This document shows, piece after piece, positions 1 through 3,390 of a stretch of DNA of 21,270 nucleotides (its first letter is position 1; the number at the start of each line of letters is the position of its first letter). The translations under genes and the position numbers were made by a program. Origin of the DNA: a virus; IMG/VR virus record IMGVR_UViG_3300038701_000339, positions 1 through 21,270 of that record. The stretch is one strand, 5' to 3'. Under the pieces are notes generated by a model. That model had not been told where the DNA came from. It saw nothing but the letters and a program-made list of their open reading frames with translations, and did not search any database.

Positions 1-419
1 TATGGTTCTGGTTCTGGTTCTGGTTGGCATTGCCGTGGCTGTGCCGTGGCATCGTGCCTTTCTTTGATTTCATTGGATTTTTCAGGATTTTTTGACCAGC
101 GCGCGCGAGCAATCTCAGACTGTTTTTCGGAATTTTTTTGCGAAATTTCCGTCTCAGTCAGCGCTCGACGGTTGATGATCGACCCGCCATCGATGCCGAT
201 CTTGCCGAGATCGACCAGCGCTTCGATGATCTTCTTGGCTCGCCCAGGAGTGCATCCGAGCTGCCGAGACAGGCGTTGATAATCCGCCTTCGGAGGCTCT
301 CCGGTGGATGCTGTCAGAGCCACAAGAGTGATGAGCGCGCCGCGCTCTTCAAGGCTCAAGGCGTTGGTGCCTGACAGCCAGTCGTCGGAGAAAAATCTGA
401 TATACGGGACGCCGCCCAT
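1..419 (-). CDS. DUF1376/YdaU-like phage replication protein, N-terminal part (runs off left edge)
   Basis: This is a partial gene. The start codon is at 419-417 and the frame is open to the window edge, giving 139 complete codons. The N-terminus reads MGGVPYIRFFSDDWLSGT and continues with LSLEERGALITLVAL, the typical opening of DUF1376 (YdaU-like) phage proteins, which sit at the lambda O position and are thought to act in replication initiation. Residues from about 40 to 80 look like a winged helix (QRLSRQLGC followed by AKKIIEALVDLGKI). The part near the edge is a polar linker ending in repeated Glu-Pro pairs, where the family normally moves into a second DNA-binding or helicase-loader-interacting region. 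A stop codon sits at 431-429, so the ATG is the only sensible start. A GAGGG ribosome binding site lies about 7 bases upstream, inside a small hairpin. It is probably the last gene visible in the leftward operon. The family assignment is confident; the replication role is inferred from family and position. Confidence 0.8.
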   Translation of the reverse strand, partial: MGGVPYIRFFSDDWLSGTNALSLEERGALITLVALTASTGEPPKADYQRLSRQLGCTPGRAKKIIEALVDLGKIGIDGGSIINRRALTETEISQKNSEKQSEIARARWSKNPEKSNEIKERHDATAQPRQCQPEPEPEP

Positions 420-423
420 TTCT

Positions 424-441
424 TGCCCTCAGGTTAGGGCA
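424..441 (-). promoter_or_regulatory. Hairpin covering the ribosome binding site of the replication gene
   Basis: A 6-bp perfect inverted repeat (TGCCCT at 424-429, AGGGCA at 436-441) with a 6-base loop lies 4 bases upstream of the ATG at 419. On the mRNA strand, part of the GAGGG Shine-Dalgarno is in the 3' arm, so folding would mask it. This suggests, but does not prove, translational control of the replication protein. Confidence 0.4.
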
Positions 442-444
442 GGG

Positions 445-570
445 ATTGTGCAGCACCTCCCACCGTGCTACCTCTTTCCCTGCGATGTCAACGCTCGCAC
501 CTTGCCATGACCGGCATCCCAACTCAACCCTCTGGCGTCTCCTCCCATCCTGCGCCAGAGGGTTTTTTCT
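445..570 (+). ncRNA. Candidate antisense/small RNA 1 ending at an intrinsic terminator
   Basis: The gap upstream of the replication gene contains no convincing ORF, but on the plus strand it holds a hairpin with a C-rich loop (AGCAC 452-456, GTGCT 465-469, loop CTCCCACC). This is followed by a terminator hairpin whose loop contains CTCCTCCC at 539-546. Any such RNA would be antisense to the leader of the leftward replication operon. CU-rich loops pair with Shine-Dalgarno sequences and are the hallmark of the alphaproteobacterial cuckoo/CcsR small RNAs (CCUCCUCCC motif). The 5' end is not determined; a possible extended -10 (TG at 398-399, TATACG at 401-406) would make a longer RNA beginning near 413. 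That an RNA exists is inference. Confidence 0.3.
526..568 (+). terminator. Strong intrinsic terminator facing right (antisense to the operon)
   Basis: A perfect 12-bp stem is formed by AACCCTCTGGCG (526-537) and CGCCAGAGGGTT (553-564), with a 15-base loop, followed by an uninterrupted run of six T (563-568) and then CTT. On the minus strand the hairpin is preceded by A's and followed by GAGTTGGG, so it can only terminate plus-strand transcripts. No plus-strand protein gene lies to its left. Confidence 0.75.
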
Positions 571-599
571 TGCCCAGACAGGCTGTCGAAGATACGGTC

Positions 600-697
600 G
601 TGGCGTTCATGCCTCTGTGAACGTCAAGCGGTTCTTCCTCCCTCGCTTGACCTACTGGGCGGGTTGAGCGAGACACACGCTCCCCGCCCGTTTTTTC
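600..697 (+). ncRNA. Candidate antisense/small RNA 2 with anti-SD-like loop
   Basis: Between the two rightward terminators there is room for an RNA of about 95 bases with three consecutive hairpins: CGTTCA/TGAACG (604-609, 618-623); GTCAAGCG/CGCTTGAC (623-630, 644-651) with loop GTTCTTCCTCCCT containing CCTCCC; and the terminator. A weak promoter is possible (TTGCCC at 570-575, GATACG at 591-596, 15-bp spacing). The general form, stem-loops with a CCUCC-type loop and an intrinsic terminator, resembles cuckoo/CcsR RNAs. Transcription is not shown by the sequence alone. Confidence 0.3.
657..696 (+). terminator. Second rightward intrinsic terminator, abutting the winged-helix gene
   Basis: GGGCGGG (657-663) pairs with CCCGCCC (683-689), and GAGCG (666-670) pairs with CGCTC (678-682). 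A TT bulge lies on one side and the loop is AGACACA. Six T's follow at 691-696. The T run touches the stop codon of the minus-strand gene at 698-696. On the minus strand no T run follows the stem, so the terminator acts rightward only. Confidence 0.7.
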
Positions 698-893
698 AGG
701 GCATGTCGCCGAGCCGCCGCTTGGCTGCCGCGCTGATCCGATACCAGCCATTCCGCAGGATCACGTCGCCAGCGTCATCCATCTCGTGCAGCGCGTCCTG
801 CACCTCGCGAGGCGACAGCCCTAGGTCGCTCGCCATCATCTCGGCACTGGCAGCGGGGATGATCCGCAGATAGGCCAGGAGCGTGTCCCTCAT
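696..893 (-). CDS. Small winged-helix DNA-binding protein
   Basis: This is a 65-residue protein. Residues 15-45 (ASAEMMASDLGLSPREVQDA) form a helix-turn-helix, followed by helix HEMDDAGDV and the hairpin VILRNGWYRIS, which together are the pattern of a winged helix of the MarR/GntR general shape. The C-terminus is basic (AAAKRRLGD). The start codon overlaps the stop of the DUF1064 gene by four bases (ATGA), so translation is likely coupled. It is the last gene before the 276-bp gap ahead of the replication protein. It may be an early regulator or a replication accessory; no specific family is recognised. Right after its stop lies the T tract of an oppositely oriented terminator. Confidence 0.65.
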   Translation of the reverse strand: MRDTLLAYLRIIPAASAEMMASDLGLSPREVQDALHEMDDAGDVILRNGWYRISAAAKRRLGDMP

Positions 894-3174: not shown

Positions 3175-3214
3175 GCAACCGGGGACTTTGGCCCCCACCA
3201 CCAACCGGAGGAAG
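3175..3214 (+). repeat. Start-associated hairpin/RBS repeat, copy 3 (degenerate)
   Basis: The same layout as copies 1 and 2 but diverged. One base is lost near the left end, the stem carries an A.C mismatch (A at 3185) and the loop is TTTG instead of TTCG. The C/A spacer and CGGAGGAAG are retained, ending 2 bases before the ATG at 3217. The RBS half is conserved better than the hairpin half. Confidence 0.75.
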
Positions 3215-3216
3215 TC

Positions 3217-3390
3217 ATGAACCACGAAGAACAGATGCGCGTCTGCCCCGAATGCGGCGGCGTCGGTCGCTGCGACTATGAGTTGCCGGTGATCAACTAC
3301 GTCAGCGGCGGATTTATCGACGTGATCAACAAAACCTGCGAGCTGTGCGACGGAACAGGCGAGGTTGAGTTTCACGAGGAAGAGGAATGA
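3217..3390 (+). CDS. Small DnaJ-type zinc-finger protein
   Basis: A 57-residue protein with two CxxCxG-type motifs: CPECGGVGRC (residues 9-18) and CELCDGTGEV (about 41-50). These are the paired zinc-binding half-sites of a DnaJ cysteine-rich finger, joined by about 22 residues (YELPVINYVSGGFIDVINKT). The C-terminus is acidic (EFHEEEE). Small phage proteins with this motif are frequent in early regions; their role is not known. The RBS comes from repeat copy 3. The stop overlaps the next start (ATGA), so the following three genes are probably translationally coupled. The zinc-finger call is well supported by the cysteines; the function is unknown. Confidence 0.65.
   Translation: MNHEEQMRVCPECGGVGRCDYELPVINYVSGGFIDVINKTCELCDGTGEVEFHEEEE

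Follow-up and report, generated by a model that had tools for sequence, protein, structure and literature searches.

A gene-free gap in the early region of the phage record IMGVR_UViG_3300038701_000339 is predicted to encode two tandem antisense RNAs, RNA1 and RNA2. On balance we favor the reading that these act in cis against the leftward early operon and restrain phage replication, with RNA2 belonging to a wider family of phage RNAs. The gap (coordinates 420–695 in the 21,270 bp analyzed here, referred to as the window) is 276 bp long and lies between two leftward genes of the early operon. Directly upstream in the operon is a small HTH gene (696–893, minus strand; a PF19187 HTH_PafC match below cut-off), and on the other side is a DUF1376 replication (primosomal) gene (3–419, minus strand; PF07120, 9e-10; phrog_9327 primosomal protein, 5e-19) that runs off the window and is the presumed target of regulation. 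The host is presumably an alphaproteobacterium, going by a tail protein that is closest to those of roseobacter phages.

The plus strand of 420–700 has a predicted fold 5.6 SD below that of dinucleotide shuffles, with none of 200 shuffles reaching it, and it contains the two rightward intrinsic terminators of the original prediction, which are borne out by their sequence, by these fold statistics and by related loci. Terminator 1 (526–568, plus strand) has a 12-bp stem, AACCCTCTGGCG (526–537) paired with CGCCAGAGGGTT (553–564), a C-rich loop, and a T run extending to 568. Terminator 2 (657–696, plus strand), which is also hairpin I of RNA2, has the stem GGGCGGG-TT-GAGCG / CGCTC-CCCGCCC (657–689) followed by a G and T6 (691–696), and it is abutted by the stop codon of the HTH gene. 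A simple terminator scan reported no terminator at either hairpin because both fall outside its grammar (a loop of more than 8 nt; a bulge). There is no plus-strand protein gene at 420–696, as predicted, and the gap appears to code for no protein on either strand; a leftward 28-codon ORF (MNATTVSS.., ATG at 610–608) was considered and is probably not coding, as our count across its close relatives (group A below) gives five nonsynonymous to three synonymous changes, with frameshifts.

The original prediction lacked promoters, and candidates are now found at 446–474 (P1) and 570–598 (P2), both on the plus strand. P1 reads TTGTGC (446–451), N17, TACCTC (469–474), and P2 reads TTGCCC (570–575), N17, TACGGT (593–598). 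When scored with a matrix trained on unrelated loci, from which the window's own relatives (groups A–D below) were left out, P1 ranks fifth and P2 ninth among all sites on both strands of the 21 kb window, and P1 is first on the plus strand. At the observed density of sites, two within 200 nt have p ~0.0009, a figure that is only rough because the training set was itself preselected for TTG and TA. The P1 site is also present in L019, L020, L005 and group D. The sites ranking sixth and eighth, at 2409 (minus strand) and 2424 (plus strand), are promoter-like sequences of the divergent early region, in the interval (2374–2498) that separates a Cro/C1-type HTH gene from the rightward operon.

Together with the terminators these promoters would define RNA1 (~481–568, ~88 nt, –34.1 kcal/mol), with its start placed ~7 nt past the –10 element, and RNA2 (~605–696, ~92 nt, –40.7 kcal/mol), whose start is likewise a prediction. 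RNA2 would fold into hairpins at 605–622, 623–651 and 657–689, followed by T6. The second of these, hairpin II (stem GTCAAGCG / CGCTTGAC, loop GTTCTTCCTCCCT), has a loop holding CTTCCTCC, the complement of a Shine-Dalgarno (SD) sequence. One member of the earlier list of hairpins with CU-rich loops has to be dropped, as the CTCCCACC hairpin is located inside the spacer of P1 and is probably spacer DNA that is not transcribed. The spacer of P2 includes a palindrome, GACAGGCTGTC (577–587), which is kept as GACA-N3-TGTC in L002, L003 and L005, and the antisense promoters of other groups carry palindromes of their own, CCGTATCTACGG and CCGCAATGCTATCTTGCGG (L025 and L022/L023). Palindromes in or over the antisense promoters are possible operators for phage regulators; an operator shared by all groups was suspected, but they are consistent only inside each group.

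Close relatives of the window (L002/L019, L003/L020 from IMG/VR, and L005, together group A) are ~88% identical across the whole gap. The gap is as well kept in L002, L003 and L005 as the neighboring genes are. RNA1 and both terminators are retained in L002, L003 and L005 with the T6 tails intact, and in all three one pair of terminator 1 is altered on both sides, from T-A to C-G. Hairpin II with CTTCCTCCCT is invariant across the group. The replication gene behind the gap differs: DUF1376 in the window, another DUF1376-type primosomal gene in L003/L020, and a DnaD-like loader in L002/L019 and L005. The RNA locus therefore travels with the HTH gene and faces whichever replication gene is present. 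All of the window-group loci examined (the window, L019, L020, L022, L023 and L031) face replication genes. In L002 and L005 a 26-codon ORF (MPEQSNWKTIGEVLKRILRDAQERQK), which the RNA does not cover, overlaps the DnaD-like loader gene as ATGA. L005 (JAUIHS010000050.1) is a phage contig in a Phycisphaerae MAG, where it is possibly misbinned, and its DUF1064 protein is 89% identical to that of the window. L008–L010 were discarded as relatives, their 17-mer match being due to chance.

A scan with the HTH family yielded 26 loci, among which groups B, C and D, besides A, hold a comparable antisense unit; the remaining loci have protein genes directly downstream and no such unit. In group B (L021/L022) CAGCGG and CCGCTG enclose TTCCTCCC, which is thus retained on an entirely different stem, and GGGCGGG..CCCGCCC follows. 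The group B loci L004/L023 retain the hairpin II stem with the loop TGTGCAGA in place of TTCCTCCC and have no T run after hairpin I, such that the gap behind their HTH gene looks like a degenerate copy. Group C (L012/L013/L025) has GGCGCG[..ACTCCCC..]CGCGCC and a GGCGGCG terminator. In group D (L031–L034 and L039) both units are recognizable, with T7 after terminator 2, which overlaps the end of the HTH gene.

RNA2-like units are more widespread still. Scanning viral contigs with a hairpin I pattern, GGCGGGTYGAGN{5,18}CTCCCCGCC, returned at least 119 stretches, at least 98 of them non-identical, with an estimated three or so chance matches. Because the pattern was derived from groups A and D, the likeness of hairpin I itself is there by construction, and the surrounding features are independent of it. 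Among the 53 non-redundant loci in the matches listed, 36 have TTG-N16-18-TA ahead of hairpin I (shuffles give 11.6 +/- 2.7, at most 21) and ten have it on the reverse complement; the spacing is almost always 17 or 18, and the distance to hairpin I is nearly fixed. Beyond hairpin I the frequency of T at 6–10 nt is 0.5–0.6, compared with a background of 0.24, and 27 of the 53 have at least five Ts within 8 nt, compared with three of 53 downstream; the T run is missing in some members (L061 and L082). The pattern does not constrain the apical pairs of hairpin I, the first of which is C-G in 29 of these 53 loci, T-A in seven, A-T in six and G-C in five, so that the pair varies while pairing is maintained. 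Most promoter-bearing loci among the matches listed fold hairpin II between the presumed start and hairpin I (mean z –2.7), often with a 7-nt loop and with stems that differ from locus to locus. In these listed matches hairpin II covaries and bears the SD complement, and a T-rich tail lies behind. At the family level the sequence case for a structured antisense RNA with its own promoter and terminator is strong. A search of 18 hairpin-I loci (99 kb) with Rfam 15 gave no matches at the gathering score. A separate family (L054, L060, L065, L067, L071, L105 and relatives), partly from non-metagenome IMG records, has the same GGCGGGGAG..CTCAACCCGCC hairpin adjoining GCCG-GAGGAGAAA-CGGC and is without an antisense promoter.

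The first or second gene downstream matches a replication family (Pfam and PHROGs) in 15 of 18 loci tested in this way, which is not an unbiased rate as later loci were partly picked for their replication-like look. The types matched are DUF1376/primosomal proteins, HTH_36 initiators, Prim-Pol, VapE-type, DnaB, DnaD-like and O-like proteins, and the exceptions are HNH endonucleases in L064 and L102 and a gene with no match in L113. An HNH endonuclease-like gene directly behind the antisense unit is also seen in L048 and L142, with a primase-like gene next; these HNH genes are possible homing insertions between the antisense unit and the replication gene. Eight loci (L058, L066, L095, L097, L100, L119, L126 and L160) have a leader ORF of exactly 16 codons whose end overlaps the start of the replication gene in the sequence ATGA. 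Their mRNA runs from hairpin I through hairpin II, whose loop contains the SD, to the leader ORF and then the replication gene, and the antisense promoter is inside the leader ORF. Several of the eight are close relatives of one another, and the replication genes behind the 16-codon leader are clearly different (an HTH_36 initiator and diverged DUF1376 proteins). The leaders of L070 and L078 have 28 and 18 codons.

From the statistics of promoters, terminators, hairpin covariation, functional strand, gene context and ATGA leaders we infer transcription, pairing and repression, and propose that an RNA2-type RNA would comprise a promoter, a hairpin with an SD-complementary loop, and a GC-rich terminator hairpin. 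A typical family member would pair with the ribosome-binding site of the coupled leader ORF, or with that of the replication gene itself, and block translation of the leader or the replication gene. As phage DNA copies rise the inhibitor would rise with them, and replication would be held back. We hold with moderate confidence that the antisense RNAs control the replication genes. The window is a special case, as neither predicted RNA covers the DUF1376 ribosome-binding site or start, and both cover the leader upstream. Candidate leader ORFs lie opposite both RNAs; none is conserved throughout group A, the SD-like loop of the window has no conserved leader ORF behind it, and neither ribosome-binding-site occlusion nor leader coupling is evident in the window group. 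Because the DUF1376 start is missed, an upstream CopT-like target, cleavage of the mRNA or duplex, or attenuation would be needed there, and the case for any exact mechanism in the window is weak.

The CU-rich loops also admit a role in trans. The RNA2 loop CUUCCUCC, together with CUCCUCCC of RNA1, could belong to anti-SD sRNAs like the alphaproteobacterial ar14 or cuckoo RNAs that bind the ribosome-binding sites of phage or host mRNAs, and in the window these would silence the rightward early operon. ar14 is defined by anti-SD loops on hypervariable stems (PMC7143759, PMC3927594), and the ar14 (NfeR1) and cuckoo sRNAs resemble the RNAs described here in having such CU-rich loops and a terminator hairpin. 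A phage-borne ar14/cuckoo sRNA was our first idea; it was demoted as CU-rich loops elsewhere face SD sites, and was then partly revived by matches to GGAGGAAG, the complement of the loop motif CTTCCTCC. There are seven copies of GGAGGAAG in the window, compared with 0.69 expected, and none of 100 shuffles reaches seven; four of them (at 2741, 2970, 3207 and 5416) are the SDs of early genes read rightward. Moreover, groups A, B and D keep the loop motif while the stems beneath it differ, even though no start codon follows. However, three of these four SD copies fall inside one triplicated 51-nt element, and elsewhere in the family the SD directly opposite accounts for the CU-rich loop. The Rfam ar14 model (RF02344) does match 436–567, but at 21.7 bits (E 0.067), far under its gathering score of 58.8, and the match begins within promoter P1. 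The position of the RNAs, in cis opposite replication genes, also sets them apart from ar14 and cuckoo. Given the seven copies, four of them as early-gene SDs, we regard a trans role as a serious rival or a second function, albeit a rather doubtful one. The 51-nt intercistronic element (CAACCGGGGGCTTCGGCCCCCACCACC-ACCGGAGGAAG), at 2710–2760, 2939–2989 and 3176–3226, consists of a hairpin and then an identical SD just ahead of the starts of small rightward early genes.

The same hairpins could instead function in the leftward mRNA, governing its processing or stability between cistrons and presenting the SD on a loop, in which case the antisense reading would be incidental. Consistent with this, in many of the matches listed they are, on the mRNA strand, preceded by a stop codon and followed by the SD and ATG of the gene downstream. 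However, the promoter enrichment and T-rich tails belong to the antisense strand, as does a bias in G-U pairs: between the presumed start and hairpin I of the promoter-bearing loci listed, the antisense strand forms 254 pairs including 51 G-U, and the mRNA strand 184 pairs including ten G-U. The difference in G-U fraction is reached in none of 100 shuffles, which give 177 and 163 pairs. These pair counts and the G-U asymmetry argue that it is the antisense strand that carries the structure, and make an mRNA element improbable.

Lambda OOP RNA was once thought to prime or activate replication. Transcripts from these loci might similarly serve as primers or activators of phage DNA replication at an origin close by. 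In favor of this, many kinds of replication gene adjoin the RNA locus, and prophages with RNA-based replication exist, the extrachromosomal mycobacteriophage prophages having an RNA that is required for replication initiation (PMC7157519). That RNA is likewise a noncoding phage RNA tied to replication, but there it is needed for initiation and here an inhibitor is the likelier role. Strong terminators close both RNAs within ~90 nt, and a primer would not be expected to have an SD-complementary loop or to face coupled leaders, such that we consider priming more improbable still. That the gap merely holds terminators blocking stray rightward transcription into the convergent operon, with no regulatory RNA, would explain two rightward terminators with no plus-strand gene, but is very improbable given a matched promoter 50–90 nt ahead of each terminator and a conserved hairpin II loop.

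Plasmids provide the textbook case of replication controlled by antisense RNA, and a YUNR or U-turn motif is the usual mark of kissing loops of the CopA/RNAI type. The cis-antisense RNAs favored here resemble CopA/CopT-tap-repA of the IncFII plasmid R1 and RNAI (Inc) of the I-complex plasmids in that a short antisense RNA faces the leader of a replication gene; the order is upstream gene, antisense RNA, leader, rep, and in core family members the replication gene is likewise coupled to a leader ORF. The CopA-type arrangement of a dedicated promoter and terminator opposite the rep leader is seen here too, in the predicted P1, P2 and terminators. Those systems are plasmid-borne, whereas here there are phages with many unrelated replication genes and no leader coupling evident in the window. 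No sequence relation to CopA or RNAI was found in Rfam. The RNA2 loop GUUCUUCCUCCCU is an SD complement without YUNR, and the loops lack this motif, so that the kissing-loop idea of the original prediction is not supported. That antisense RNAs lie in front of the replication gene is well supported by the candidate promoters and the terminators, by a gap kept beside exchanged replication genes, and by the other phages that share the layout; the original interpretation as a whole is partly supported. The comparison with CopA/CopT holds for the family, with its coupled leader ORF and the antisense promoter within it, and is not evident in the window, where the ribosome-binding site is uncovered. 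The 16-codon leaders follow the same logic as CopA, which is described as controlling repA via a leader peptide (Blomberg 1992, as cited in PMC10724649). OOP, too, is short, antisense and ended by a terminator, and it is encoded between a gene for a small DNA-binding protein and an O-type replication gene, but it acts on cII mRNA (PMC12197685), whereas the RNAs described here are two tandem units that face the replication leader and end at the HTH stop codon. Unlike OOP, RNA2 does not extend into the regulator gene upstream: its T run (to 696) touches no more than the final base of the HTH stop codon.

We found no description of such a phage RNA locus or family in the open-access full-text literature or in Rfam, and DNA searches of GenBank phages and plasmids found nothing. 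A comparable gap is absent from the DUF1064-containing Ruegeria and Paracoccus phages and from named phages with related primases or DUF1376 proteins, and we found no example of the antisense unit in a named phage.

Taken at its broadest, and only tentatively, this may be a portable replication brake: a widespread phage antisense RNA family with its promoter in a short leader ORF, an SD-complementary loop and a terminator hairpin, sitting ahead of five or more unrelated types of replication gene in uncultured phages, doubled in the window group, and with RNA2 also silencing the opposite early operon in trans. The recurring layout before several unrelated replication genes suggests a plasmid-like RNA brake on phage replication. 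If so, the same antisense logic ahead of many unrelated replication genes would account for the way in which temperate phages or phage-plasmids keep early replication in check, would offer a way into superinfection and inter-phage incompatibility, and would add an RNA family that annotation pipelines have overlooked.
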